DNA of 16,367 nucleotides from Candidatus Poseidoniaceae archaeon (GTDB lineage: Archaea; Thermoplasmatota; Poseidoniia; Poseidoniales; Poseidoniaceae): NCBI GenBank assembly GCA_013330015.1, contig DUJC01000051.1, positions 1 through 16,367 on the forward strand. Direction: 5' to 3'. How positions within the stretch are numbered: the stretch's first letter is position 1; each line of letters opens with the position of its first letter. A program made the position numbers and the translations under genes. Of the stretch, positions 950-16,367 are shown piece by piece. Under the pieces are notes generated by a model. The model saw only the letters and a program-made list of their open reading frames with translations. It did no database searches and was not told the origin of the DNA.

Positions 950-1780
950 ATGGCTGAGGAAGTCTCTCCAGAAAAAGCGAAGGAAATCGTGGAGATGTTG
1001 ACTGGAGGTGGTTCGATTGAATCCATCAACACTTCATTGGCCTTGGGTATATTGCCATTGGTCGAGTCAATAGGTGACTTAGATCTCCTGCATCGTTTGG
1101 TTGAACATGCTCAGCAAGTTGCAGAAGATGACGTTGAGAAGGGCTGGGCACGATTTGAGCATCTGAAGCGATACGCAGGTTCAATCGATGATGTTGCAGA
1201 ATTGGCATTCCATGCTGAGTCAATGGAAAAAGGAGCTCCACTTGCAGCCGCTGTCCTTCATCATCACGCACTGATGTTGCTCTCCATCGAGGAGATTGAA
1301 TCGGCACAAACATCCATACGTCGTTCGCTGACATTGCGAGAATCCATCGAAGATCAGGAAGGCATTGTTTACGGCTTGGCCGTACTCTCACGCTGCTCAA
1401 GACTCAACCAAGATTGGGATTCTGCCATCATCCATGATACACGCCGACTCGAGTTAGCGATTTCTATGCAGAACGATGTTCTTCGCATGGAGGCACTTGC
1501 AGATGTTGCGCATGCTCAAGCCAGTATCGGCGAACTCGCTACTGCGAGTGAAATGTATCAAGAAAGTCTCGACTTTGCCAAGCGCCTTGAAGATCCTGCT
1601 GGTCATCTTGTTGCAAGTTGGGGCCTTGCGGATCTTGCAGAAATTGAGACCCGATACGACGATGCTCTTCTGGCTTTATCGGATACGATGCATTTGTTCA
1701 TGCAACTTGGAATCCCTGCTCCAGACCTACTGAAGAAACGACTCCATGACCTTACAGCACTCGGTGAGGATGTTAACTGA
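950..1780 (+). CDS. TPR-repeat cytoplasmic protein, 276 aa
   Basis: The protein is almost wholly alpha-helical and has no signal peptide or membrane segment. Tetratricopeptide-like helical pairs occur at about residues 97-131, 137-171, 178-212 and 217-250, with the small/large residue spacing typical of TPR (for example ALADVAHAQASIGELATA, then YQESLDFAKRL). TPR proteins act as protein-binding scaffolds; no catalytic domain is visible, so the partner is unknown. The ATG at 950 is preceded by an 88-base divergent gap shared with the nuclease gene, with no clear Shine-Dalgarno site, so a short or leaderless transcript is likely. It precedes the catabolic cluster on the same strand by 52 bases, but nothing in its sequence ties it to that pathway. 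Confidence 0.8.
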   Translation: MAEEVSPEKAKEIVEMLTGGGSIESINTSLALGILPLVESIGDLDLLHRLVEHAQQVAEDDVEKGWARFEHLKRYAGSIDDVAELAFHAESMEKGAPLAAAVLHHHALMLLSIEEIESAQTSIRRSLTLRESIEDQEGIVYGLAVLSRCSRLNQDWDSAIIHDTRRLELAISMQNDVLRMEALADVAHAQASIGELATASEMYQESLDFAKRLEDPAGHLVASWGLADLAEIETRYDDALLALSDTMHLFMQLGIPAPDLLKKRLHDLTALGEDVN

Positions 1781-1832
1781 TGGTCGAACGGGTTATGTGA
1801 TTTGACGTGTTGGGAAATATGGGGCGAAGTTG

Positions 1833-3062
1833 ATGCAACACGACATTTTCTTTTCCATCAGCCAAACGCCCGACGCTGATGGCCATATTCCCGATGAACA
1901 AACCATGCTTCGAAACTACTTCGAACAACTCGAATGTGCAGATTCCTTGGGCTTTGGCGTTGGATGGATTGCTCAAGCCCACCTTTCAACTGAAACACAG
2001 AAATCAAACAGCAAACCAGTGGTTCCACACTGGCAAGGTGAAGTTGGACTTTGCACCGATTTTCCGCAACTCGCCACAGAATCGTTTCGAAGGACAAAGA
2101 ACATCGAAATCGGTAGTGCCGTTGTCTCTATTCTTGCATCGGGTGGGCCAATTGCACAAGCAGAGAGGATTGCCAACACCTTGCAACTTCTTGCTGTCAA
2201 CGACGATGCTCGCAAGCTCCACGTCGGCTTCTCAGCAGGAAGATTCGAATTCATGGCTCGCCCGTATGGGATCGTCCCACGAACAGCTGTAGAAGAAGCT
2301 GCATGGCCGGCGTTGCGTGCACAAATTTTCCTTGAAGCAAGTGAGATCTTCCTGCGATTGCTGCGAGGGGATGTCGTTTCTTCCGATTCTGTACGCTCGA
2401 CCACATTGACACGTGAGAATTTCAGAAGCGATGAAGATTGGAAGCGTGTGCAAGAGGCTCACGGTTCCGATGTTGATGCCATCGACTTTGGCCGTCGTTA
2501 CGTCTTTGAAGACATTCGAATCGTTCCAAATACATTTGACCGAAATCAATTGGTGCTTGTAGCAGGAACACACGATCCAAGGGCTCAAGTGTTCGTCAAT
2601 TCGTTCCTTCCAGTACGTGTTTTCAACCTCTCGATTACACAACCGGACGTCATTGAAGCGACACATGAGCGTATGCGGTCCTGTTTCCATCCAGATGGTG
2701 GGGAATGGAAGCGTTCGGATATGCCACGAACCAGTTTTGTGTTTGTGAACGATGAACCTGATCTGACGCCTGAGGAGCAACGCCAAGCTGCTCATCGTGA
2801 AGCGGATGAAGCACTGAGTGCCTACTGGAATGCACTTGAAGGCACCATCGACCCAAACAAAGTTCAGAATGCAGCACAAAACGCATTGATTGGAAACGTT
2901 GAGGACGTCTCCCAACAACTGGTTGAACGCTTCCATCCGGAGGACCGTGTTATGGCGTGGTTCGATTTCTTCAATCATGACAGTGCTCGGGTCTGTAGGA
3001 ACATGCGAGCATACATGGAAAAGGTCGCTCCACGTGTCGAAGAACTTCTCAATGGTGATTGA
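1833..3062 (+). CDS. Luciferase-like (LLM) flavin-dependent monooxygenase
   Basis: This 409-residue protein has the bacterial-luciferase-like TIM-barrel pattern: an N-terminal strand HDIFFSI, then ECADSLGFGVGWIAQAHL (34-51), which matches the family's 'ae.lGfd.vw.aeHh' segment. Further along are IEIGSAVVSI (91-100), PIAQAERIANTLQLL (106-120), HVGFSAGRFEF (130-140), and near the C-terminus ALIGNVEDVSQQL (351-363) and MAWFDFF (374-380). Such enzymes use reduced FMN or F420 to oxygenate small organic substrates, including N-heterocycles (RutA) and other ring-opening substrates. The substrate cannot be read from sequence, and no flavin reductase is in the window. I chose the ATG at 1833; a TTG sits directly before it at 1830. 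The stop overlaps a TTG of the next gene, which suggests one transcript with the amidohydrolase and dehydrogenase. Confidence 0.85.
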   Translation: MQHDIFFSISQTPDADGHIPDEQTMLRNYFEQLECADSLGFGVGWIAQAHLSTETQKSNSKPVVPHWQGEVGLCTDFPQLATESFRRTKNIEIGSAVVSILASGGPIAQAERIANTLQLLAVNDDARKLHVGFSAGRFEFMARPYGIVPRTAVEEAAWPALRAQIFLEASEIFLRLLRGDVVSSDSVRSTTLTRENFRSDEDWKRVQEAHGSDVDAIDFGRRYVFEDIRIVPNTFDRNQLVLVAGTHDPRAQVFVNSFLPVRVFNLSITQPDVIEATHERMRSCFHPDGGEWKRSDMPRTSFVFVNDEPDLTPEEQRQAAHREADEALSAYWNALEGTIDPNKVQNAAQNALIGNVEDVSQQLVERFHPEDRVMAWFDFFNHDSARVCRNMRAYMEKVAPRVEELLNGD

Positions 3063-3064
3063 AC

Positions 3065-4186
3065 ATGGACATCAATCATCACGATCATTCCGCTGTCAAA
3101 CCTGGTCGTCCGGGAAGCGAATTGTTTCCAAATTCGCCACTTGGTGAACAAGTTGAGGGTATTCCTACCGGTCGTGACGTTGCATGGGAGCCATTGGTCG
3201 ATTACCGAAGGAATGGGGTTTCGGAAACAACCATTCACGGTGCAGTTGCGTGGGCACATGGCGATGAAGTCATCCATTCTTTTGGAGGAAACGTTCTCTG
3301 TTACGGTCGTTCGATGATGAAACCCTTCATGCTCAAGGCCTTCGTCAATGAACTTGCAGATCTTTCATGGGAGCAAAAGGCCATTTCGGTGGCCAGCCAC
3401 AATGGCGATACAGAACATGTTGCTGCGGCACAATCACTGCTTTCCCAATCAGAATGGCCTTTGATGCTGACGCCATTGGATGTACCCCTCATTCAGTTCG
3501 GTCGTCAGGTACGTCGTCCACGACGATGGTATCACACATGCTCTGGCGAGCATGCTGCAATTCTACGGGGTTGCAGAGAGAAAGGATGGAATCGGGCGGG
3601 GTACACCTTGCCGAGTCACCAAGTGTTCGATGCGTACATGAGCGAAATACGACGCTTCCTTGGCGAGGATTGGACACCTCAACGGATTGCCAAAGACGGA
3701 TGTGGATTGCCAACCGTCTCGAACACGGTTGCTGAATTGGCTCAAATCTATGCAGGACTTGTTCAAGACAAAGATGAAGATTGGATTTGGGAATCCATGG
3801 TCCGTCATCCCGACCTCGTCGGTGGATTCAATCGCCTCGACTCAACCATTCTCAAAGCGGGTGAAGGAACAGTCATTGCAAAAGAAGGGGCTGATGGTCT
3901 ACTCGGACTTGCTATTGAGCATCCTGACTATCCAAAAGGACTCGGTATCGTCGTGAAAATTGCGCATGGATGGAACGCTCAAGCGACATGGTACGTAGCA
4001 AGAGCCATCCTCGGTGTGCTTGGTATTGACCTGAGAAATCCATACCCTCTCCATCGACAAAAGGCATTCATCGTTCCTGGAATCGTTCCTGAACGATACC
4101 TTGGCGTCCTTGAGACCATCCCTACTTGGGATGAATGGGATCCCGATCAAGACCGTTGGATGTACGATGCGGAGATGGACGCATGA
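3065..4186 (+). CDS. Asparaginase II family (class 3, Rhizobium AnsA-type) amidohydrolase
   Basis: This 373-residue protein carries the marks of the family typified by Rhizobium etli inducible asparaginase: the SxxK pair Ser83/Lys86 (GRSMMKPF), Ser111 in ASHNGDTEH, the CSG-H motif with Cys159 and His163, DGCGLP with Asp211 and Cys213, and Lys273 in AKEGADG. These match the two Ser-Lys tandems and the cysteines of the zinc site known for that enzyme. Glu162 stands where the family usually has a zinc-site lysine, so the substrate or metal use may differ. Family members hydrolyse the side-chain amide of asparagine. Here the gene sits between an LLM monooxygenase and an aminomuconate-semialdehyde dehydrogenase, so an amide arising in that pathway is a reasonable alternative substrate (inference). 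The start could also be TTG at 3059, overlapping the upstream TGA. It ends in an ATGA overlap with the next gene. Confidence 0.85.
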   Translation: MDINHHDHSAVKPGRPGSELFPNSPLGEQVEGIPTGRDVAWEPLVDYRRNGVSETTIHGAVAWAHGDEVIHSFGGNVLCYGRSMMKPFMLKAFVNELADLSWEQKAISVASHNGDTEHVAAAQSLLSQSEWPLMLTPLDVPLIQFGRQVRRPRRWYHTCSGEHAAILRGCREKGWNRAGYTLPSHQVFDAYMSEIRRFLGEDWTPQRIAKDGCGLPTVSNTVAELAQIYAGLVQDKDEDWIWESMVRHPDLVGGFNRLDSTILKAGEGTVIAKEGADGLLGLAIEHPDYPKGLGIVVKIAHGWNAQATWYVARAILGVLGIDLRNPYPLHRQKAFIVPGIVPERYLGVLETIPTWDEWDPDQDRWMYDAEMDA

Positions 4187-5634
4187 ATGCGTTGAACTTC
4201 ATCGATGGAGTCTTTGTCGATGCAGTTGATGGAAAGACGCTTGCAAACGTTAACCCAGCAACTGGGCAGGAGATTGGAACGATTGCGCGATCAAAGAAAG
4301 CCGATGTCGAAGTGGCTGTACAAGCTGCGATGCGATCACGCAAAGACTGGGCATCACGTTCCATGCTCGAACGCGCAGATTGGCTTGACAGAATAGCCGA
4401 TGGTCTTGAGCGGCGCAAGGAAGAGATTGCACAGCGAGAGTCAAGAGATACGGGTAAGCCACTTACGCTTGCGCGTCGAGTCGATGCACAACGTTCGATT
4501 GACAACTTCCGATTCTTCGCCGATTTCGCCCGACAACAAGAGCCGGAAGTGTTTGAGATGGCAGATGCGACCAACATTGTTCATCGAAATCCAATCGGTG
4601 TAGTAGGATTAATCACACCTTGGAATCTGCCACTCTATCTGTTGAGTTGGAAGGTTGCTCCTGCGTTGTTGATGGGGAACACCATTGTAGCGAAACCGAG
4701 CGAGATGACACCCCTTACAGCAGCACTGATGTGCGAAGTCGCTTCCGAGATTGGGCTTCCTTCTGGTGTCATCAATGTTGTACACGGCTATGGTCCAGAA
4801 GTGGGACAAGCCATTCTCGAGCATCCTTCCATTGGTGCGATTTCGTTCACAGGAGGGACAGCAACAGGCCGACACGTTGCTGCAACGGCAGCCCCTCTGT
4901 TCAAGAAACTCTCACTGGAACTGGGTGGGAAAAATGCAACAATTGTTCTCGATGATGCCGATTTGGACGAGGCCGTCAGTGGGGCGGTTCGAGCCGGATT
5001 CACAAACGGTGGACAAGTTTGTCTGTGCGGCTCGCGAATTCTTGTTCATCAATCGATTGCGGATGAATTCACTCAACGACTCGTTGTGGCAGTCGATGCA
5101 ATGGTCTGCGGACCACCAGAAGACGCATCCACACAAATCGGCGCTCTCATCAGTATCGAACATCTCGAAAAGGTCGAATCGTACATCGAACTCGGCGTTG
5201 AAGAGGGTGGAACCATCTTGACAGGTGGTACACGAGAAATGACTGGACCGGTCATCGCTACTAACGCTGGGGCCTTCCTGCGACCAACCATCATCGATGG
5301 TCTCGATCACACGTCGAGAACGTCAACAGAGGAAATCTTCGGACCAATTGTCACCGTTCACCGTTTTGATTCAGATGAAGAAGCAATCGAAATGGCCAAT
5401 TCCACAGAATACGGACTCGCTGGTTCGATATGGTCGACGAACATTGACCGTGCACATGCGCTTGCTCAGCAAATCGAAACAGGAATCATCTGGGTCAACA
5501 CGTGGTTGCATCGTGATTTGAGGACACCGTTTGGTGGTGTCAAGAATTCAGGTGTGGGTCGAGAGGGTGGTAATTGGAGTCTAGGATTTTTCTCAGAACC
5601 ACTCAATGTTTGCATCAAACACAGCCAAGAATGA
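4183..5634 (+). CDS. amnC: Aldehyde dehydrogenase of the 2-aminomuconate/2-hydroxymuconate 6-semialdehyde type (AmnC-like)
   Basis: The 483-residue protein has the normal NAD-dependent ALDH length and catalytic set: Asn148 in PWNLP, Lys171 in AKPSE, the general base Glu246 in LELGGK, the nucleophile Cys280 in GGQVCLC, and Glu384 in EEIFGP. The C-terminal DLRTPFGGVKNSGVGREGG and FSEPLNVCIK, together with Arg110 in NFRFFADF and Arg444 in HRDLRTP, are typical of the subgroup oxidising 2-aminomuconate or 2-hydroxymuconate semialdehydes, where two arginines hold the carboxylate. The predicted reaction is 2-aminomuconate 6-semialdehyde to 2-aminomuconate, which stops the semialdehyde cyclising to picolinate. 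The ring-cleaving enzyme and the deaminase that would flank this step are encoded at 7093-9389. The ATG at 4183 overlaps the upstream stop as ATGA, a sign of translational coupling. A 2-hydroxymuconate semialdehyde substrate is the main alternative. Confidence 0.85.
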   Translation: MNALNFIDGVFVDAVDGKTLANVNPATGQEIGTIARSKKADVEVAVQAAMRSRKDWASRSMLERADWLDRIADGLERRKEEIAQRESRDTGKPLTLARRVDAQRSIDNFRFFADFARQQEPEVFEMADATNIVHRNPIGVVGLITPWNLPLYLLSWKVAPALLMGNTIVAKPSEMTPLTAALMCEVASEIGLPSGVINVVHGYGPEVGQAILEHPSIGAISFTGGTATGRHVAATAAPLFKKLSLELGGKNATIVLDDADLDEAVSGAVRAGFTNGGQVCLCGSRILVHQSIADEFTQRLVVAVDAMVCGPPEDASTQIGALISIEHLEKVESYIELGVEEGGTILTGGTREMTGPVIATNAGAFLRPTIIDGLDHTSRTSTEEIFGPIVTVHRFDSDEEAIEMANSTEYGLAGSIWSTNIDRAHALAQQIETGIIWVNTWLHRDLRTPFGGVKNSGVGREGGNWSLGFFSEPLNVCIKHSQE

Positions 5635-5683: not shown

Positions 5684-6505
5684 ATGTCGGTTCACAGCAA
5701 AGCAACGAAAGTCACGACGCATACGCTTCAAGAAATGAAGCGTGCCAACGAACCTATCACCATGTTGACGGCGTACGACTACTCACTTGCTCGCCTTGTT
5801 GACGCAGCAGGTGTTGACGTGATACTCGTCGGCGATTCTGCTTCGAACGTTATGGCAGGTCAGGTGACAACTGTTCCCATGACGCTTGACCACATGATCT
5901 ACCATGCTCAATGTGTACAGCGTGCTGTTGATAGAGCGCTCATTGTCGTCGACATGCCTTTTGGAACCTATCAAGGAAATTCCCGGCAAGCTCTTGAAAG
6001 TGCTATCCGCATCATGAAAGAAGCAGAAGGCCATGCTGTCAAACTTGAGGGTGGTTCTGAGATTGTTGAATCGATCGAACGGATTCTGACTGCAGGTATC
6101 CCTGTTATGGGTCATCTTGGGCTCACGCCTCAAAGCATCTACAAGTTTGGAACCTACACAGTTCGCGCCAAAGAAGAAGAAGAGGCAGAGAAGTTGATTG
6201 AAGATGCAAAACTTCTCGAGGAAGCAGGTTGCTTCGCAATCGTTCTCGAAAAGATTCCAAAGGAACTTGCACAACGCGTTCAAAGTGAGTTGAGCATTCC
6301 AGTCATTGGCATTGGAGCTGGTCCTCACTGCGATGGGCAAGTCCTCGTCCTTCACGATCTTCTTGGAATTACAATGGATTTCTCACCACGATTCCTTCGT
6401 CGTTATCTCAATCTTGCAGAGGAAATCGATGGTGCCATTCGTTCGTATTGCGAGGATGTCCGTTCAGGCGATTTCCCGAATGAATCCGAATCGTACACGT
6501 CTTAG
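5684..6505 (+). CDS. panB: 3-methyl-2-oxobutanoate hydroxymethyltransferase
   Basis: PanB transfers a one-carbon unit from methylene-tetrahydrofolate (or its archaeal analogue) to 2-oxoisovalerate, giving ketopantoate for pantothenate and coenzyme A. The 273-residue length fits. Every key position is kept: Asp51-Ser52 in [11 protein letters not shown], Asp90 in [10 protein letters not shown], Lys120 and Glu122 in VKLEGG, His144 in [12 protein letters not shown], Glu189 in VLEKIP, and [15 protein letters not shown] (205-219). A GAGG at 5673-5676, seven bases before the ATG, is a plausible ribosome site. It follows the dehydrogenase by 49 bases and may be co-transcribed. Its full active site argues for the housekeeping role, not a catabolic one. 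Its TAG overlaps the stop of the convergent membrane-protein gene. Confidence 0.95.
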
Positions 6506-7092: not shown

Positions 7093-7989
7093 ATGGCCAA
7101 AGGTTCGATTGTCGCAGGCTGTCTTGCACCGCATCCACCTCATCTTGTGTACGCAGAAAATCCTCCACAGAATGAACCAACTTCTGAAGGGGGTTGGGAG
7201 CAGCTTCGTTGGGGGTATGAACGGCTACGTGAATCACTTTCAAAAATTGATCATGATGTCTTGGTCATCCTTTCGCCACATTGGCAAACATACGTAGGAA
7301 CACACTTCCTTGGTTTGCCTCACTTTGAGGGACTCTCGGTCGACCCTATTTTCCCCAATCTGTTTCGATATTCATACAACCTTGACATTGATGTCGAATT
7401 GAGCAAAGCCATTCATGACAAAGCAGCGGATGCAGGTCTTGCTGTGAAGATGATGGAGAATCCAGATTTCCGTGTTGATTATGGAACGATTACAACAGGT
7501 CACATGGTCAATCCAGCCTTCGACAAACCTCTTGTTGTTATTTCATCGAATCGTTCTCGACATTATTACTCGGTTGAAGTCATGCAAGAGATGATGATGG
7601 AACTTGGTAGAGTGACTCGCGATGCTATTCTCGAAAGCGGTAAGAAAGCAGTTGTACTCGCATCAAATTCACTTTCCCATCGCCACTTTACGACAGAATC
7701 CGATGTTCCTGAGGACATGAGCAAAGAGCACATCACCAGTCATGCAATGCATCTTTGGGATATGCGAATCATCGATTACATGCGAACCGGTCAAGCCCAG
7801 CGAATCATCGACGAGATGCCTGAGTTTACCGAACAAGCCATCGCTGAATCCGATGGCGGGGGTCTGACTTGGCTCCTCAGCACCTTGACCGTACCAACAT
7901 ATCCTGCCATCCTTCATGGATATGGGACCATAATCGGAACTGGAAATGCCATCGTTGAATGGCCCTGTTACGCTCACGAGGAGGTCTGA
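7093..7989 (+). CDS. amnB: 2-aminophenol 1,6-dioxygenase catalytic (beta) subunit, AmnB-like
   Basis: This 298-residue protein (from ATG at 7093) is a LigB-fold extradiol dioxygenase. Its N-terminus, with APHPPHLVY and NPPQNEP followed by GGWEQLRW, is the signature I know from the Pseudomonas AmnB and Comamonas CnbC beta subunits. The iron ligands of that family (His13, His62, Glu251) and the catalytic His195 fall at His14 (LAPHPPH), His63 (LSPHWQ), Glu252 (IAESDGG) and His196 (NSLSHRHF), a constant offset of one. DPIFPNLFRYSY, DYGTITTGHM and HGYGTIIGTGNAVVEW-like segments also fit. The predicted reaction is iron(II)-dependent cleavage of a 2-aminophenol between C1 and C6, giving 2-aminomuconate 6-semialdehyde. 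The exact ring substituents cannot be read. Upstream in-frame starts (7021, 7069, 7078) exist, but homologues begin at the MAKGSI position. The partner subunit follows after two bases. Confidence 0.88.
   Translation: MAKGSIVAGCLAPHPPHLVYAENPPQNEPTSEGGWEQLRWGYERLRESLSKIDHDVLVILSPHWQTYVGTHFLGLPHFEGLSVDPIFPNLFRYSYNLDIDVELSKAIHDKAADAGLAVKMMENPDFRVDYGTITTGHMVNPAFDKPLVVISSNRSRHYYSVEVMQEMMMELGRVTRDAILESGKKAVVLASNSLSHRHFTTESDVPEDMSKEHITSHAMHLWDMRIIDYMRTGQAQRIIDEMPEFTEQAIAESDGGGLTWLLSTLTVPTYPAILHGYGTIIGTGNAIVEWPCYAHEEV
7978..7985 (+). promoter_or_regulatory. Shine-Dalgarno site deciding a TTG start
   Basis: GAGGAGGT lies inside the last codons of the beta-subunit gene and ends six bases before a TTG at 7992. 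It supports that TTG as the start of the next gene, over the ATG at 7959, which lies upstream of the site and would add eleven residues that match nothing in the family. Confidence 0.65.
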
Positions 7990-7991
7990 TT

Positions 7992-9389
7992 TTGACCAAC
8001 CCTGTTCTTGCTTCGTACGTGGTTCCTGTCCATCCGCATCCTCTCTTGGTTCCTGAACAAAACGAAGGCTGGCAAAGGCTACGAGATGCTTTTGATGAAG
8101 CTCGCCAACAGATTTCAGACAGCGGTGCAGATGTGATCATCATCTACTCAACAACCTGGCCGAGCATCATTGGGCATCAGATTCAAGCCGACCCAAATCC
8201 AACGTGGACCTTGGTCGATCAGGATTTTCATGACCTCGGATCCATGGACTATTCGTTCCGAATCGATGCTGACTTTGCAGAGGCTTGGAACAAGGCCAAC
8301 CATTCACGAGGTCTTCAGAGTAGAACCGTTGCCTACAATGGATTCCCAATTGATGTCGGATCGGTTGTCGCCCTGAAACTCCTCAATCCAGACAATGCGA
8401 TTCCAGCAGTCATTGTTTCATCCAACGTCTATGCCAACCGTGCTGAGACCACAGTTCTTGCAAAATCGTGTCTTGATGTTTTGAAATCAACTGGAAAGAA
8501 AGCTGTTGCTGTCACCGCAATGTCAATGTCAAATCGAATGTTCACGGAATTTATTGATGCTGCTGATGATAAGATTCACTCACTCAAGGACGATGAATGG
8601 AATCGTAAGGTCCTTGAGTTCCTTGAAGAGGGGCGTCTTGAGGATGTCGCACAACTCTCCCGCACCATTCATCAACAAATTCGCGTGCAAAAGGTCGTTA
8701 CTTTCAAGCCGATGTGGTGGCTTTCTGCTATGAACGATAATCGAAACGATTTGACCGGTCGCGTCCTTGCCTACGAAGCATTGCATGGAGCCGGAGGTGC
8801 TGTTGTCCATCTTGACCCAACATCCAACGGAATGGGGGACAAGGAATACGATGAAGACGATGTTGAAGTCTATCATGGTGAACGCAACGTTCTCGATGCA
8901 GAGGCGAATGAAAGTTCTCCTGAATCCAAACACGTTGATGGCAACGGTCCAGCACTATGGGACCCTGCAGAAGGCAAGGATGCGGTGAACACAGATTCTG
9001 CGCCAAAACCTGTTGGATTGTATCCTCATGCTCGACGAGTTGGTGATCTTCTGTACCTTTCAGGCGTCGGTCCTCGGCAACCAGGAACAAATGCCATTCC
9101 TGGTGGCCCGATTCAGGATGCGAATGGAGAACCACTTGAATACGACATCAAAGCGCAAACGCGAGCGGTCGTCGAAAACATTGCTCGAATCCTTGAGGAG
9201 GCTGGATCGTCGATGGAAAAGGTCGTCGATGTAACGTCGTTCCTTGTTGATATGGATCGTGATTTTGCTGGTTACAACGAGGTTTGGGCGGAGACACTTG
9301 GCCATTATGGTCCAACGAGAACGACGCTTGCGATTCGTGCTTTACCGACGCCAATCGCAGTTGAAATGAAGGTCATCGCAAAAATCTGA
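7992..9389 (+). CDS. Fusion: 2-aminophenol 1,6-dioxygenase partner (alpha) subunit + 2-aminomuconate deaminase (RidA family)
   Basis: The 465-residue product (TTG start at 7992) has two parts. Residues 1-275 are a LigB-fold subunit like AmnA. They lack the metal site: the position of beta His63 is Thr55 (YSTTW), and that of beta Glu252 aligns near Lys234, as expected for the non-catalytic partner. Residues 276-337 are an acidic, charged linker. Residues 338-465 are a RidA/YjgF domain close to AmnD: KPVGLYPHARRVGDLLYLSG, DIKAQTRAVVENI, VVDVTSFLVDM, FAGYNEVW, YGPTRTTLAIRALP and EMKVIA, with Arg449 and Glu458 at typical Rid active-site positions. The deaminase would hydrolyse 2-aminomuconate, via its imine, to 4-oxalocrotonate and ammonia. 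In known bacterial clusters these are separate genes. The fusion puts ring cleavage and deamination in one complex; the dehydrogenase step between them is encoded at 4183-5634. Confidence 0.88.
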   Translation: MTNPVLASYVVPVHPHPLLVPEQNEGWQRLRDAFDEARQQISDSGADVIIIYSTTWPSIIGHQIQADPNPTWTLVDQDFHDLGSMDYSFRIDADFAEAWNKANHSRGLQSRTVAYNGFPIDVGSVVALKLLNPDNAIPAVIVSSNVYANRAETTVLAKSCLDVLKSTGKKAVAVTAMSMSNRMFTEFIDAADDKIHSLKDDEWNRKVLEFLEEGRLEDVAQLSRTIHQQIRVQKVVTFKPMWWLSAMNDNRNDLTGRVLAYEALHGAGGAVVHLDPTSNGMGDKEYDEDDVEVYHGERNVLDAEANESSPESKHVDGNGPALWDPAEGKDAVNTDSAPKPVGLYPHARRVGDLLYLSGVGPRQPGTNAIPGGPIQDANGEPLEYDIKAQTRAVVENIARILEEAGSSMEKVVDVTSFLVDMDRDFAGYNEVWAETLGHYGPTRTTLAIRALPTPIAVEMKVIAKI

Positions 9390-9440: not shown

Positions 9441-9498
9441 TTTGTTTGCTTCAAGGGACATGTAAGCACTCTTTGTGCACGAATTCGGGGATTTTGCC

Positions 9499-10911
9499 AT
9501 GCCAATTTCAAAACTCGATTCTCTTGTTGAACAAGGAACTGAAACCATCAAGAAGACCTTGAAGCGAAGCGTTGGTCTTGCTGGTGTTGTGATTATTTCA
9601 CTCTCTGCCATGCTTCCTGGTATCTTCGTGACACCAACCTTTGCTGCTGATATCATGGGTGCGGGAATCTGGCTAGCGTTCATCGTCGCAGCCGCAGTGG
9701 TCTTGCCTGCTGCTATTTCCAAAGCTGAATTGGCCTCAGGTATGCCATCGAGTGGTGGTTCCTATGTTTACCTCGAACGGACCTATGGGCCGATGATCGG
9801 TACCATCAGCGGTCTCGGATTGTGGGCCTCGTTCCTGCTGAAATCCGGTTTCGCTTTGATTGGATTTTCAGCTTACTTCATTGCCGTGACAACGTATTTT
9901 GATATCGATATGGAAATGCTCGTACTTTCGATGAGTGCTTTGGTGCTCATTACCATCGTGAACATTCTTGGTGTCAAGAAGGTCAAGGCAATTCAAACAC
10001 CGGTCTTGATTCTTACGCTTGGTATGCTCCTCCTCACATGTGGTGCAGCCTTCTTTTCGGCGGATTTCGACGGAGCACGTCCGTTCAAGGCAGCCTTTGA
10101 CACCGATCTTTGGACGCTTGCTGAGACATCAGCTTTCGTGTTTGTTGCCTATGCAGGTGTTACGAAGGTAGCCGCAATCGGTGGCGAAGTCAAAGATCCA
10201 GAAAAGAACCTGCCAGCAGGCATGCTGCTCTCATTGCTCATTGCGACTGTTCTCTATGCATTGATTGCGTACCTGATGATGGCTGCTATTCCAGGAACGT
10301 GGTGGGAGGCCGATGGCAAAGTTGTCGAAAATCCAATCTTTGTGTTTGCAGAACATGTTGCAGGCACTGAGTTTGGTATCTTCGCAGCAATTATTTCCGT
10401 GCTTGCCATGATTTCAATGGCGCTTGCAGGTATTCTCGCATCGTCCCGATTCTTGTTTGCTATGGGACAAGACAAATTGCTTCCTCCTGCTCTCGAACGT
10501 GTTCACGAGAAGTACGAAACGCCTCACTGGCCCATCATCGTCACGGGTGTGGCAATGGGACTTGCGATCTTCTTCGTACCTCTCAAAGATGTCGTAAAGT
10601 TAGCATCTGGGTTCAAAATCATGATTTTCATCATGATCAACACCTGTGTCATCATTCTTCGACAAACAAGCGATCGTCACGAATGGAATCCTTCCTACAA
10701 GGGCGCTTTGTATCCCTTCATGCAATTGTGGGGCATTCTTGCAGGTCTATTCCTGATCTACTTCATTGGAGATAAGGCATTTATTGGTGCGTCAGCAGCC
10801 ATTGTTGCTGGCTTGCTGACCTATTATCTGTACGGATGGAAGCATGCGAAGATCAAGAAGACGCCTTTCCATTCATTCATTGGCCGTGACTTCAAGGGCC
10901 GTGATGACTAG
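9499..10911 (+). CDS. APC-superfamily amino acid/amine permease
   Basis: This 470-residue integral membrane protein has about 12 hydrophobic spans. It keeps the APC N-terminal features: a basic segment then GLAGVVIISLSAMLPGIF as span 1, AELASGMPSSGGSYVYLERTYGP after span 2 (the conserved 'e.P.aGG.Y.y....gp' motif), and FVFVAYAGVTKVAAIGGEVKDPEKNLP, the 'f.G.e....e..eikdP.r..P' hallmark. The C-terminus is cytoplasmic and basic. APC carriers exchange or import amino acids and amines with ions. Placed 109 bases after the ring-cleavage genes, it may import the aminoaromatic substrate or its amino acid precursor (inference). The ATG at 9499 follows GGGG at 9487-9490; a GTG at 9475 would add eight residues. 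It ends six bases from the convergent small gene. Confidence 0.88.
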   Translation: MPISKLDSLVEQGTETIKKTLKRSVGLAGVVIISLSAMLPGIFVTPTFAADIMGAGIWLAFIVAAAVVLPAAISKAELASGMPSSGGSYVYLERTYGPMIGTISGLGLWASFLLKSGFALIGFSAYFIAVTTYFDIDMEMLVLSMSALVLITIVNILGVKKVKAIQTPVLILTLGMLLLTCGAAFFSADFDGARPFKAAFDTDLWTLAETSAFVFVAYAGVTKVAAIGGEVKDPEKNLPAGMLLSLLIATVLYALIAYLMMAAIPGTWWEADGKVVENPIFVFAEHVAGTEFGIFAAIISVLAMISMALAGILASSRFLFAMGQDKLLPPALERVHEKYETPHWPIIVTGVAMGLAIFFVPLKDVVKLASGFKIMIFIMINTCVIILRQTSDRHEWNPSYKGALYPFMQLWGILAGLFLIYFIGDKAFIGASAAIVAGLLTYYLYGWKHAKIKKTPFHSFIGRDFKGRDD

Positions 10912-11157: not shown

Positions 11158-11970
11158 TCAGATGCTTCGCAGACGACCACCGTCAACAGGCAATGAAACG
11201 CCGCGTATTGCTCCAGCAGCAGGTGAGGCGAGGAAGGCGATGACTGAAGCAGTCTCCAACGGATCAATCAATCGCTCGATAGGGACTTGACTCATCCAAC
11301 CATCATGAATGGCTTCAATCGATTGACCTGTTCGCTCATGGATGGATTGGGCCAAACTTCCCAATCGCTCCGTATCGGTGAACCCTGGTAGAACGTTGTT
11401 GATGGTTATCGAAGGATGAAGTTCGCGTGACAAGGATTTGGCCCATGATGCCATAGCTCCACGAAGCGTATTCGATACGCCAAGGTTTGGAATTGGTTCG
11501 CGAACACTTGTCGAGATGATCTGAATGATTCGACCATAATTCGCCATAATCATACCCGGTGTAAGCAATTTCACCAAGGAATGTGCAGCGTGAAGATGTC
11601 GAGTGAACGGTTGAGCCAATTCCTCAACATTTGCGTTCAGCAATGGACCGCCTGGAGGACCTCCTGCATTGTTGACGAGAATATGAATCGGGCCAATATC
11701 GAGAACCGGTTGCACACATCCTGCGATACCTTCCGTATCCTCCAAATCCATAACCAGTGTTTGATGTTGACCGCTCCCGAGTTCTGTAAGTTCATTGAGC
11801 AGGGAATTGAGTTGTTCTTCATTCCGTGATGCGAGAATGACGTTCGCTCCTGCTTTAGCCATGATTCGAGCGGTTGCTGCTCCAATTCCACGACTTGCAC
11901 CACAAATGAGGGCAGTTTTTCCTTCGAGAGCGTTGTTTTGCAAAACGGCTTGGTCTCCTAAGAGGTCCAT
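11158..11970 (-). CDS. Atypical short-chain dehydrogenase/reductase (BKR-like) without YxxxK
   Basis: The 270-residue protein has the SDR Rossmann fold: GASRGIG (24-30) for the cofactor pyrophosphate, NNAGG (100-104), and PGFTDT (195-200). The catalytic pair is altered: counting from Ser153 (IISTS), the usual Tyr falls on Ser166 and the Lys on Arg170, in GVSNTLRGAM. A known SDR subgroup related to beta-ketoacyl-ACP reductase (CDD 'BKR-like SDR-like') has this SNxxR pattern and no proven reaction. ALASRN near 46-50 and a PVDGG end (261-265) are kept, so NADP(H) binding is likely. It follows the hydrolase by 38 bases on the same strand. Chemistry is uncertain: a redox step with a different proton donor, or a binding role. 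Confidence 0.85.
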   Translation of the reverse strand: MDLLGDQAVLQNNALEGKTALICGASRGIGAATARIMAKAGANVILASRNEEQLNSLLNELTELGSGQHQTLVMDLEDTEGIAGCVQPVLDIGPIHILVNNAGGPPGGPLLNANVEELAQPFTRHLHAAHSLVKLLTPGMIMANYGRIIQIISTSVREPIPNLGVSNTLRGAMASWAKSLSRELHPSITINNVLPGFTDTERLGSLAQSIHERTGQSIEAIHDGWMSQVPIERLIDPLETASVIAFLASPAAGAIRGVSLPVDGGRLRSI

Positions 11971-12008: not shown

Positions 12009-12755
12009 TCAAAGCCAATCCAAAATTGCATCTTGCTGAACAAGCCAATCGTCGCTCGCAGCGTCGATGATGCTGTAATGGTCGCCAGGTAGCCAAACTT
12101 TCTGCACATCGCATCCTTTGGCTTTCATAGCACGTGCGTAGGTCTCGCTTTGTTCAATGGGCACATCGACATCTCGTTCTCCGTGAATCAGCAGTACTGG
12201 TGACTTTGGAGGCAGATCGATTGGATTGAGATTCTTCCACAAGGATTCGTTTTCATAGGGTGGGCAACCCATCCATTTGCGAATTGCATCTCCCTCATCA
12301 CTGAGTTGTGCATCATCCGCTCCGAACAGATCTGTAATCGGTGATTGAGCGATGGCGAGCCACGGTTTTCTTTCTGCTTTGCTTGCCATCAAAAGAGCGA
12401 GATGGCCGCCTGCGGAGTGCCCCATGACCATGCTTCGCGTGATATCAATGCCTGGAAGGAGTGCAAGTTGCCCCCATGCTCGAAGAACATCTGAAAGTGT
12501 GTCCATCCACACACCCTCATCACCGTCTTCCCATCGTCGAAATTCGATGTTCCAACTGGCCACGCCTGCATCGCTCAATGCATTCGCAATCGGTTGCATC
12601 AATTCGTAGGTGTACTGTTTCTTCCAAAATCCACCGTGAATCAACATGATGCACGGAACACCGTGGTCGTTCTGGAACGGTGAGGGTTCATCTGGCATGT
12701 GCAAGTCTGCAAACTGCCACGCTTCGGCGCCCCACTGCATTCGATCGACAGGCAT
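12009..12755 (-). CDS. Alpha/beta hydrolase, BD-FAE/kynurenine-formamidase-like esterase or amidase
   Basis: This 248-residue protein (ATG at 12755; an in-frame TTG at 12764 would add three residues) shows a complete alpha/beta-hydrolase triad: nucleophile Ser114 in GHSAGGH, Asp195 in HGERDVDVP and His226 in PGDHYS. The oxyanion motif HGGFWKK (40-46) resembles the HGGYW motif of kynurenine formamidases and the related BD-FAE/prolyl-oligopeptidase-like esterases. No signal peptide is seen, so it is cytoplasmic. It follows aspS with 10 bases between the aspS stop and its ATG, or one base if the TTG is used, and precedes the SDR, so these are probably co-transcribed. Hydrolysis of a small ester or N-formyl aryl amide is the family role; the link to the aminoaromatic genes is only by proximity. 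Confidence 0.82.
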   Translation of the reverse strand: MPVDRMQWGAEAWQFADLHMPDEPSPFQNDHGVPCIMLIHGGFWKKQYTYELMQPIANALSDAGVASWNIEFRRWEDGDEGVWMDTLSDVLRAWGQLALLPGIDITRSMVMGHSAGGHLALLMASKAERKPWLAIAQSPITDLFGADDAQLSDEGDAIRKWMGCPPYENESLWKNLNPIDLPPKSPVLLIHGERDVDVPIEQSETYARAMKAKGCDVQKVWLPGDHYSIIDAASDDWLVQQDAILDWL

Positions 12756-12765
12756 GATGGCCAAC

Positions 12766-14187: not shown

Positions 14188-14343
14188 CTAAAATAGCAAT
14201 CGCCAAAACATATACGTCACAAAAACCAAACCCCCGATTGTGTGGGCACCCGAACCGGATAGTACAATCGTGAACTTTTCAACCAAGTAGCCGATTCGCT
14301 CAAGTGCTGAGAACGCCTCGCTAGCATTGGTCCCATGTCGCAA
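14188..14343 (-). CDS. Possible 51-residue membrane mini-protein upstream of aspS
   Basis: On the reverse strand, a frame from TTG at 14343 to TAG at 14188 reads like a real protein: an amphipathic helix SEAFSALERIGYLVEKFTIV, then a small Gly/Ser turn and a hydrophobic end, TIGGLVFVTYMFWRLLF. Codon choice (CGA, GTT, GAG, TTC) matches neighbouring genes. It ends 21 bases before the aspS ATG in the same direction. Against it: the only usable start is TTG, it overlaps the first nine bases of the divergent secreted-protein gene, a candidate aspS TATA box lies inside it, and I recognise no family. Treat it as a hypothesis. Confidence 0.4.
   Translation of the reverse strand: MRHGTNASEAFSALERIGYLVEKFTIVLSGSGAHTIGGLVFVTYMFWRLLF
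14205..14215 (-). promoter_or_regulatory. Candidate TATA box for aspS
   Basis: The reverse strand reads GTATATGTTTT here, centred about 45 bases before the aspS ATG. A start about 26 bases downstream would leave an 18-base leader. The region between aspS and the divergent secreted-protein gene (14167-14334) holds nothing else clear apart from the mini-ORF. Confidence 0.35.
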
Positions 14344-16367
14344 CTCTCCATTCGTACGTTCGTTTTGGTTGGAATGATGCTGCTCGCAAGTGCAACGCCA
14401 CTTGCGCAGTTAAGCAAAGCGGATTCAGAAATTGAGTTGGATGTTGACATGCCTCACATGATTCTAACGCCCGGTGAATCGATGAATTTGACCCTAACAA
14501 TCCATAACAATGGTTCATCAATTGAAACGTATGATGTTGAAATTGATTCAGTGGTCTCACCACCGCCTGCCGCTTGGACAGTGACACCAACTTCCAACAC
14601 CGTATCGAACGTCCTTCCAACATACAATTCCACATTGACCATTGTTGTTCAACTTGGAGAAACAGCAACTCCAAGCGACAATGGCATGTTCACAGTCATC
14701 GTTTCTGAGAGCGACGGAACCGCATCTTCAACCATCGACGTGTACGTCAGTGTCGCCATTGTCTACAATCCTCATTTGGACGCAACAGGTGTCGGCGACC
14801 AAGGGTTGTTGGCGATTGATCCGGGACAATCGGTTGATCTATCGATTCCAGTGAGCAACTTTGGTAGCGTAACAGATTCCTATCTTCTAAGCGTTGGCCA
14901 AGAGCCTGACCTAACTGGATGGTGGGCGAACTATTCCTCTGGAGGCTCCTCCAATACAACAACGACGCCGCCAGCATGGTCGGCTTCTGTCAGCGACGTC
15001 CTCACCTTTGGAAACTCTTACACGTCTGCAAATGGTCTTTCATCCATGCTTGAGGAACTTTTGCGGAGTGCGGACAGTCCGAGCAATACCTCTGATTTCA
15101 CGAACGGTGGTTGGACCATTGCCGACCACTGGGATGACGTGAATACTTCGGGTAGTGCCCAGAATCTGTCGCTCGCATCCGGTGTATGGGACACTGTCAT
15201 TGTTCAGGATCAGTCACAAATCCCTGGATTCTTGCGGACCGATCCAGATTGGCTAGCAAGCAAAAACGGCAGCGTCCACCTCGCTGATCGCATCGATTCA
15301 GAAGGTGCTGCAATGATGCTCATGATGACGTGGGGGCGTCGAAATGGGGATGCTCAAAACCCGATCCTTTACTCCAACTTCACAGTGATGCAGGACCGAC
15401 TCGAACAAGGCTACATCGATTATCGAGACAACATTTCTCAGGAAACTTCAGCTGAGATTTACATCGCTCCAGTTGGCCTTGCATTCAAGCACATCCATGA
15501 TTCCATCGCTGCTTCGGGTGGCAATCCATTGTCCCCAACATCGACCTTCTATGGTCTCTATTCCGCCGATGGAAGTCACCCTTCGACATCTGGCTCATAT
15601 CTGGCAGCATGTGTTTTGTTTGCAGCACTCACTGGCGACTCTCCCGTCGGTCTGACAGACAATACAACGATGGATGCAACCTTGCGTCTCACCCTTCAAC
15701 AAGCGGCTGCAGAAGTTGTCTTGAACGGGTCTTCTGAGTACACCTATCCTTGGGAGTCCTCAGGTACCATTCAACCCATGAGTCAGCATTCTTCCTTCCC
15801 TGCTGGTTGGGAGGTCCGTTGGCTCGACGACCAGATTGAGAACCTCTCTGCAAACGGCCAAGAGACTGCCACACTCAGAATTACCATTCCTTCGGATGCC
15901 AGCCCTGGTGCAACCGGTATCCGATTGTATGCAGGTTCATTATTCGGAAACGTGACCACATCGACCCTCATGATCGTCGATGTCCAACCTGATTATGATT
16001 TGCAAGTCGATTTCTTGAATGCAGGTGATGCGTTCTTGCCTGGTGAGCAGACCAATTCCTCGGTTCGCTTGACGAACACGGGCACAACCGACGCATCCTA
16101 CGAGTACACCTTGACGGTGCTTTCTGGTCCATGTACTGCAGCTCTTCTCACCTATGCTTCTTCGCTCGTTGTTGATGCAAGCGACGATCTTGCCTTCAGC
16201 GCCGATATCGGAAGCGCTGCCAACGTAGGCGATGTATGTTCACTTCGACTAACTTCAACACTTGCTTCAGATGTTTCTGTATCGTTTGTTCGTGATTTCT
16301 CGTTTGAAGTCGATCGTGACATCAATTTCACGCTTCAGGGTCCCAACGGAGCCGTTGTGATGGACCC
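14335..16367 (+). CDS. Large secreted surface protein with embedded SGNH-hydrolase-like domain, 3' end outside window
   Basis: I read this frame from the ATG at 14335; 677 codons stay open to the right edge. Residues 1-28 are a signal peptide (IRTFVLVGMMLLASATPLA). Residues 30-205 hold two NEW3/CARDB-like beta modules (LTPGESMNLTLTIHNNGSS at 45, IDPGQSVDLSIPVSNFGS at 161). Residues about 221-440 look like an SGNH/DUF4886-type hydrolase: LTFGNSYTS with Ser228, TVIVQDQSQIP (287-297), EIYIAPVGLAF (374-384), and ADGSHPSTSGSYLAACVLF with Asp412 and His415. More beta modules follow (about 490-550 and 555 onward, with LPGEQTNSSVRLTNTGTT). SGNH enzymes cleave ester or acetyl groups from glycans and lipids; here the enzyme would act at the cell surface. 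Many Asn-x-Ser/Thr sites fit archaeal glycosylation. A C-terminal anchor would lie beyond the window. Confidence 0.85.
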   Translation, partial: MSQLSIRTFVLVGMMLLASATPLAQLSKADSEIELDVDMPHMILTPGESMNLTLTIHNNGSSIETYDVEIDSVVSPPPAAWTVTPTSNTVSNVLPTYNSTLTIVVQLGETATPSDNGMFTVIVSESDGTASSTIDVYVSVAIVYNPHLDATGVGDQGLLAIDPGQSVDLSIPVSNFGSVTDSYLLSVGQEPDLTGWWANYSSGGSSNTTTTPPAWSASVSDVLTFGNSYTSANGLSSMLEELLRSADSPSNTSDFTNGGWTIADHWDDVNTSGSAQNLSLASGVWDTVIVQDQSQIPGFLRTDPDWLASKNGSVHLADRIDSEGAAMMLMMTWGRRNGDAQNPILYSNFTVMQDRLEQGYIDYRDNISQETSAEIYIAPVGLAFKHIHDSIAASGGNPLSPTSTFYGLYSADGSHPSTSGSYLAACVLFAALTGDSPVGLTDNTTMDATLRLTLQQAAAEVVLNGSSEYTYPWESSGTIQPMSQHSSFPAGWEVRWLDDQIENLSANGQETATLRITIPSDASPGATGIRLYAGSLFGNVTTSTLMIVDVQPDYDLQVDFLNAGDAFLPGEQTNSSVRLTNTGTTDASYEYTLTVLSGPCTAALLTYASSLVVDASDDLAFSADIGSAANVGDVCSLRLTSTLASDVSVSFVRDFSFEVDRDINFTLQGPNGAVVMD

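Follow-up and report, generated by a model that had tools for sequence, protein, structure and literature searches.

Analysis of contig DUJC01000051.1 (GenBank assembly GCA_013330015.1) of a Candidatus Poseidoniaceae archaeon, whose 16,367 nucleotides are referred to here as the window, revealed a gene in which a protein resembling the alpha subunit of 2-aminophenol 1,6-dioxygenase is fused to a Rid domain of the 2-aminomuconate deaminase type. The alpha subunit-deaminase fusion is encoded at 7992..9389 on the forward strand as a single open frame of 465 amino acids without an internal stop, running from a TTG start to a stop codon at 9387-9389. An AGGAGG sequence is located just 5' of the TTG, and the Met starts of two homologues (P0004 and P0044) fall in the same alignment column. 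The gene order in this part of the window is a luciferase-like flavin monooxygenase (LLM), an asparaginase-II homologue (AsnII), an aldehyde dehydrogenase (ALDH), panB, the dioxygenase beta subunit, the alpha-Rid fusion and an amino-acid permease. The AsnII and ALDH genes overlap by 4 bases, as do the LLM and AsnII genes if a TTG start is used.

The alpha portion comprises residues 1-281 (7992..8834, forward strand). Pfam LigB was matched above its cut-off at residues 21-263 (E 1.1e-11), a search of the PDB by sequence aligned residues 5-273 with the alpha subunit of 2-amino-5-chlorophenol 1,6-dioxygenase (3vsg_A, E 3.9e-38), and Foldseek matched the model of this portion to the same chain with a TM of 0.89 by target length. 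This subunit has the same fold as beta but is without its Fe ligands, with V, T, Q and N in the ligand columns where beta has H, H, E and H. The Rid domain occupies residues 335-464 (8994..9383, forward strand), which matched Pfam Ribonuc_L-PSP above its cut-off (E 1.1e-25). Its top Rid match, both by sequence (residues 334-463, E 1.2e-25) and by Foldseek E-value, was the 2-aminomuconate deaminase of Pseudomonas sp. AP-3 (6izh_A), to which it is 42% identical over 132 columns. That enzyme stands alone, whereas the Rid domain in the window is joined to a dioxygenase subunit. An Arg and a Glu shared with the AP-3 enzyme, to which we assume a functional role, were kept in all 72 aligned rows. AlphaFold2, run with 18 sequences, predicted two folded domains (mean pLDDT 75.9). 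These matches bear out the sequence-only reading of the gene, which had assigned its first ~275 residues to the dioxygenase alpha subunit and its last ~128 to the deaminase. The functions themselves, a partner role in ring cleavage for alpha and deamination of 2-aminomuconate for the Rid domain, are predicted from sequence and model.

Between the two domains the sequence-only reading had placed an acidic, flexible linker of 60 residues, a description that held for part of the region. Residues 303-334 (8898..8993, forward strand) represent a tether that differs in length and composition among homologues and is predicted to be disordered (pLDDT <50 at residues 296-339). Residues 282-302 (8835..8897, forward strand), in contrast, form a conserved acidic motif of 21 residues, GDKEYDEDDVEVYHGERNVLD, which recurs, with changes, from archaea to Acidobacteria. 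The stand-alone alpha subunits of L039-L042, which are encoded by separate genes, also end in a motif of this type, and on the alignment these residues belong to alpha, where they may act as a docking element. A glycine-zipper-like stretch was observed before the Rid domain in two (L031 and L032) of the three fused loci of another family of the same order (f2; the window's own family is f1), and the separate Rid proteins of L039-L041, but not L042, also carry one. Such stretches are hydrophobic (e.g., AGGALGAAAGVAVGGPVGGIVGGVVG in L041) and might allow the deaminase to attach to a membrane.

The catalytic beta subunit is encoded by the preceding gene (7093..7989, forward strand) and is AmnB/CnbCb-like (8ihg_A, E 2.1e-111). 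Its residues H14, H63, E252 and H196 align with CnbCb 13, 62, 251 and 195, of which we take the first three to be the Fe(II) ligands His, His and Glu, and the last to be the active-site His; the ligand and active-site residues were invariant in 74-75 rows. The ALDH gene, two genes upstream of beta (4183..5634, forward strand, with a start proposed at the ATGA overlap and a longer frame from 4135), encodes a protein whose best match is 2-aminomuconate 6-semialdehyde dehydrogenase (4i1w, E 1.4e-142), in agreement with the earlier expectation that such an enzyme must act between ring cleavage and deamination.

This system resembles AmnAB/CnbCab (8ihg, 3vsg) and the ARO microcompartment dioxygenase (7txy) in having a catalytic beta and a non-catalytic alpha subunit, and in its conserved beta active site; its beta is 53-57% identical to those of five classical clusters. 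It differs in the conserved acidic tail and fused deaminase of its alpha, which is only 28.5-34.1% identical to the five classical alpha subunits and falls in a separate clade. A passage of PMC10470539 states that neither ARO subunit was soluble by itself. The classical amn/cnb operons of Comamonas CNB-1, P. veronii T1 and Ensifer M8 likewise combine genes for the dioxygenase, the semialdehyde dehydrogenase and Rid, but their alpha and Rid genes are apart, as the sequence-only reading had stated. As lower-pathway genes, all three operons carry one of FAA-hydrolase type or a named decarboxylase/hydratase, and two carry an aldolase.

The fusion is real. In a search of the window's genome and 59 relatives (60 genomes in all), the frame ran through the linker without a stop in 33 of 35 same-genus or same-family relatives by hand count, including G003 and G027, in which only a linker-spanning piece was present. 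Of the two exceptions, G020 had no match and G028 matched at residues 4-162 only, ending before the linker. Both Pfam domains were present in all 120 protein matches listed of 3379 in total, and among the matches listed the named close relatives were Candidatus Poseidoniales or Poseidoniaceae. One relative (L033, from G053) does offer a precedent for a fusion created by assembly or frameshift: its joined frame is spurious, passing through an undetermined base and continuing in a shifted frame, and this locus was dropped from the fused set. Such an artefact is ruled out for the fusion as a whole, with a negligible probability, by its stop-free presence in genomes and metagenomes from many sources.

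The fusion is also widespread. We scored 73 loci, each with matches to beta, alpha and Rid, and 58 were truly fused. These comprised 30 genome loci (among them the window's own), 13 records named as Poseidoniales-type, which may share species with the 30 genome loci, and 15 of a further 20 loci. The record titles of the last group place them in Acidobacteria, Planctomycetota, Myxococcota, Krumholzibacteriota, Deltaproteobacteria, unassigned bacteria and two Thermoplasmata archaea. The fusion therefore spans at least four bacterial phyla as well as archaea; the bacterial loci rule out a fusion confined to archaea, the setting that the sequence-only reading had implied. That reading had also allowed that the fusion might already be described as common in bacteria. 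It is common there, but we found no description of it in the open-access literature.

The unfused loci consisted of 11 with separate frames, one with an in-frame stop (L109), two rearranged loci (L110 and L111) with Rid at a distance from alpha, and L033. Within f2, three of 13 loci were fused, nine had separate genes and one had a spurious joined frame. A phylogeny built on the concatenated subunits, alpha and beta (65 of 78 rows, after removal of 13 same-genus near-copies; quick method, SH-aLRT support only), fully supported the separation of the fusion-bearing clade from the five classical AmnAB pairs. At least six changes between the fused and split forms were required on this tree. Separate genes in relatives, which had earlier been held to count against the fusion, do occur, but we read them as fissions and not as errors because they are nested among fused rows. 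An early fusion with several later fissions is the simplest reading, with the deep branches of the clade poorly resolved and regained fusions possible. In the split loci L039-L041 the alpha stop overlaps the Rid start codon (TGATG), and a small indel could toggle between split and fused forms.

Because split forms recur, the covalent link between alpha and Rid is not essential. The fusion might be neutral, merely providing equal expression of two adjacent genes with no channelling, an explanation that overlaps with the other readings given below. The repeated changes on the tree and the displaced Rid genes of L110 and L111 are consistent with neutrality, which we regard as a serious possibility, if somewhat short of an even chance. 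Against it, the fused form has been kept in most of the scored loci over several phyla, and the ring-cleavage product, 2-aminomuconate semialdehyde (AMS), is unstable and, according to a passage of PMC10470539, undergoes cyclisation to picolinic acid in the absence of the dehydrogenase. If the fusion is adaptive, the tether would hold the deaminase close to where the unstable intermediates arise, with ALDH having to act in between and perhaps recruited to the same assembly, as the sequence-only reading had suggested. A third enzyme borne by the structural subunit would also stay part of the complex at a constant stoichiometry.

The genes at the start of the cluster provide additional data on the likely substrate. 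The LLM (1830..3062, forward strand) has the luciferase-like fold in its predicted structure, nearly the whole chain of which matched the type II Baeyer-Villiger monooxygenase (BVMO) 3,6-DKCMO and bacterial luciferase. The likeness is one of predicted fold, with identities in the structural alignments of 15% and 14%, respectively, and the protein belongs to a distinct LLM subfamily. We propose that it may be a Baeyer-Villiger enzyme acting on kynurenine.

AsnII (3059..4186, forward strand; PF06089, E 3e-48) is related to class 3 asparaginases and matched ReAV-type structures. Its Ser85, Lys88, Ser113 and Lys275 correspond to the ReAV catalytic tandems Ser48-Lys51 and Ser80-Lys263, and were kept in all 93-95 covering rows. 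Where ReAV has Lys138 in its zinc site, 92 of 94 rows have Glu and the other two have Gln; according to a passage of PMC11024299, 97% of ReAV orthologues have Lys at position 138. The zinc-site Cys residues were kept in 92 and 91 of 94 rows. Because the Lys of the Cys-Lys-Cys zinc site is replaced, the protein is, judged by its alignment, a homologue and is not classed as an asparaginase; we propose it as a candidate beta-aspartyl ester hydrolase.

A third companion, an atypical short-chain dehydrogenase/reductase (SDR; 11158..11970, reverse strand), has SNxxR in place of YxxxK, and the canonical Tyr and Lys were absent from all nine cluster members aligned. It is the usual companion of LLM, including in loci where the dioxygenase was not seen. 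Seven loci (L107, L119, L125, L127, L132, L139 and L154) had LLM, SDR and ALDH with no AsnII or dioxygenase in the stretch read, and represent either a shorter cluster variant or genes located elsewhere. In L132 and L154 these genes occurred in records titled as Klebsiella pneumoniae metagenome-assembled genomes, titles that look like mislabelled metagenome bins.

To place these genes in context we compared the 80 best-matching genome loci with LLM out of 321; of the 80, 58 were from outside the Poseidoniales and 22 from within; many of the contigs were short. The 58 non-Poseidoniales loci had SDR in 48, ALDH in 40, AsnII in 36, beta in 24, alpha in 23 and Rid in 20. They also had arylformamidase in 19 and tryptophan 2,3-dioxygenase (TDO) in 17, with either present in 28 and both in 8. 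These two enzymes accompany the cluster in that proportion, though not in the window itself. The association was stronger among the 24 beta-bearing loci: AsnII was present in all 24, TDO or formamidase in 21, and SDR in 21. In L091 eight genes follow in a row, from TDO to formamidase. Among 116 further neighbour open reading frames (ORFs; 202 called) of the beta-bearing loci, formamidase (15) was the sole family with more than two members. The TDO and arylformamidase proteins tested scored above Pfam cut-offs.

The clusters share a TDO and arylformamidase start with the kynurenine pathways that proceed via 3-hydroxyanthranilate or anthranilate, the former of which presumably has the aminomuconate enzymes in common with them. 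They differ in that a single kynureninase probe found no match in the clusters, and 2-aminophenol, not hydroxyanthranilate, is the proposed intermediate. The classical operons show the reverse pattern, with lower-pathway genes and no TDO annotated in the three examined (their plasmid annotation is incomplete), whereas no decarboxylase, hydratase or aldolase family recurred among the scanned neighbours of the new clusters.

In the Poseidoniales, LLM was found in 58, AsnII in 59 and TDO in 55 of the 60 genomes of the order, and kynureninase scored above cut-off in just one. LLM adjoins AsnII even where the dioxygenase is elsewhere (e.g., G040 and G058). Among 20 relatives' loci fetched, AsnII and ALDH were beside the fusion in eight (L023-L026, L028, L030-L032), with LLM in all of these but L030; in the remaining 12, LLM, AsnII and ALDH lay outside the stretch, except for the end of ALDH in L029. 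The wider phylum sample of 243 genomes included 179 from outside the two Poseidoniales families, and LLM was found in five of these. All five have TDO, four within 2 kb, and TDO was found in nine of the other 174 genomes (eight over the cut-off). This co-occurrence is significant (Fisher p about 1e-6), with the counts made by hand and three of the five genomes from one genus.

The bacterial formamidase family PF04199 was found in none of the 60 genomes of the order, with the control positive in 8 of 14. For this reason we propose, as a weak candidate for the kynurenine formamidase of Poseidoniales, an alpha/beta hydrolase with an HGGFW motif (12009..12764, reverse strand), a motif that we assume to be linked to that enzyme. 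The hydrolase was in the fetched stretch of 19 of 22 Poseidoniales LLM loci versus 0 of 58 others; its match to kynurenine formamidase 4e11 (E 0.0078) ranked behind many other hydrolases.

Overall, we think it probable that the fused protein belongs to an operon that degrades tryptophan via kynurenine and 2-aminophenol, and that its structural alpha subunit carries the third enzyme of ring cleavage. Based on family assignments and gene linkage, TDO and formamidase would convert tryptophan to kynurenine. LLM would then insert oxygen between the kynurenine ring and carbonyl to form an aspartate 2-aminophenyl ester, and AsnII would hydrolyse this beta-aspartyl ester to aspartate and 2-aminophenol. 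Family and linkage again suggest that beta and alpha would cleave 2-aminophenol to AMS, that ALDH would oxidize AMS to 2-aminomuconate, and that the Rid domain would deaminate 2-aminomuconate to 4-oxalocrotonate. As a guess, SDR might reduce 4-oxalocrotonate to 2-oxoadipate, a step that is possible because no decarboxylase, hydratase or aldolase family recurs nearby; a passage of PMC7842363 indicates that reduction of 2-oxo-3-hexenedioate to 2-oxoadipate is possible. The aldolase domain PF07836 was found in none of the 60 genomes, with no control genome positive either, while PF01557 (FAA hydrolase) was found in 50, none being the window's own incomplete genome, and may in some of them represent an oxalocrotonate decarboxylase. 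That all of this constitutes a new tryptophan route in marine Poseidoniales and several bacterial phyla, with LLM Baeyer-Villiger oxidation, AsnII ester cleavage and a fused dioxygenase-deaminase leading to 4-oxalocrotonate and perhaps 2-oxoadipate, we rate at modestly better than even.

The dioxygenase of this clade could instead act on another tryptophan metabolite, such as a kynurenine hydroxylated by LLM, which would then be an aromatic hydroxylase. The fully supported separation of the clade from classical AmnAB and the varied chemistry of LLM-fold enzymes are in line with this. We find it improbable, since beta is close in sequence to the classical betas with all ligand and catalytic columns kept, ALDH and Rid best match aminomuconate enzymes, and the beta-aspartyl hydrolase homologue would be left without a role.

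Several observations weigh against the kynurenine-to-2-aminophenol pathway. Sulfonate and F420 enzymes, among others, share the LLM fold, and for this reason the BVMO chemistry is a guess from context; moreover, no flavin reductase family recurred among the scanned neighbours. Zinc binding may be weakened by the Glu that takes the place of ReAV Lys138, and the AsnII of L098 is without both zinc cysteines. The TDO and formamidase of the clusters scored below NCBIfam equivalog cut-offs. None of the 22 LLM loci from Poseidoniales contained TDO, which is located elsewhere in these genomes, and no match to it was found in the window's own genome, which is 57% complete. In L121, L122 and L129, LLM was without any partner over 19-21 kb read. 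A tblastn search of plasmids found LLM only in three S. clavuligerus records, where a scan of 10 of the 21 called ORFs around it found no partner genes.

In addition, 34 of the 58 non-Poseidoniales LLM loci had no beta in the stretch fetched, with AsnII in 12 of the 34, and in f2, genus g15 excepted, LLM and AsnII are paired away from the dioxygenase genes. These last two points slightly lower the odds of the pathway. They also favour an alternative in which 2-aminophenol, or a similar aminophenol, from outside or another source is degraded, TDO and formamidase are neighbours because they too belong to aromatic catabolism, and LLM and AsnII act on other substrates; classical amn clusters are, after all, found in degraders of pollutants such as nitrobenzene and aniline. 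We nevertheless consider this alternative unlikely given the near-constant presence of AsnII and of TDO or formamidase in the beta-bearing loci, where no other neighbour family recurs, and given that no LLM or AsnII match was found in five classical amn loci.

The window contains other genes of less certain relevance. A ketopantoate hydroxymethyltransferase gene, panB (5684-6505), lies within the cluster; it was inside or beside the cluster in 18 of 22 Poseidoniales LLM loci and has no apparent link to the pathway. The APC amino-acid permease downstream of the fusion (9475..10911, forward strand) adjoins it in several relatives. Upstream of LLM is a TPR-repeat protein (950..1780, forward strand) that was found in Poseidoniales loci only, with no match in the bacterial loci. 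A long open frame at 14335-16365 runs off the window and by eye resembles a secreted or surface-exposed protein built of repeated domains.

In the open-access literature, a scope that leaves most subscription papers and all of bioRxiv outside, we found no account of an alpha-Rid fusion or of a kynurenine-to-2-aminophenol route. In the portions consulted, a Rid-fusion survey names tandem Rid fusions only (PMC4433059), 2-aminophenol and tryptophan degradation are given as separate predicted functions (PMC12113859), and kynurenine, Baeyer-Villiger and 2-aminophenol are named in unrelated places (PMC10466732). The fusion is a new form of a known enzyme pair, and the pathway, if right, would be a new route assembled from known enzyme families.

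The proposed pathway predicts two new enzyme activities, Baeyer-Villiger oxidation of kynurenine and hydrolysis of a beta-aspartyl aryl ester, and the natural fused and split versions of alpha-Rid offer a ready comparison of tethering versus loss to picolinic acid. If the pathway is correct, it would provide an ordinary metabolic source for 2-aminophenol meta-cleavage, which has been described as shown only in pollutant degraders, and would link this chemistry to tryptophan in one ocean archaeal group as well as several phyla of bacteria.
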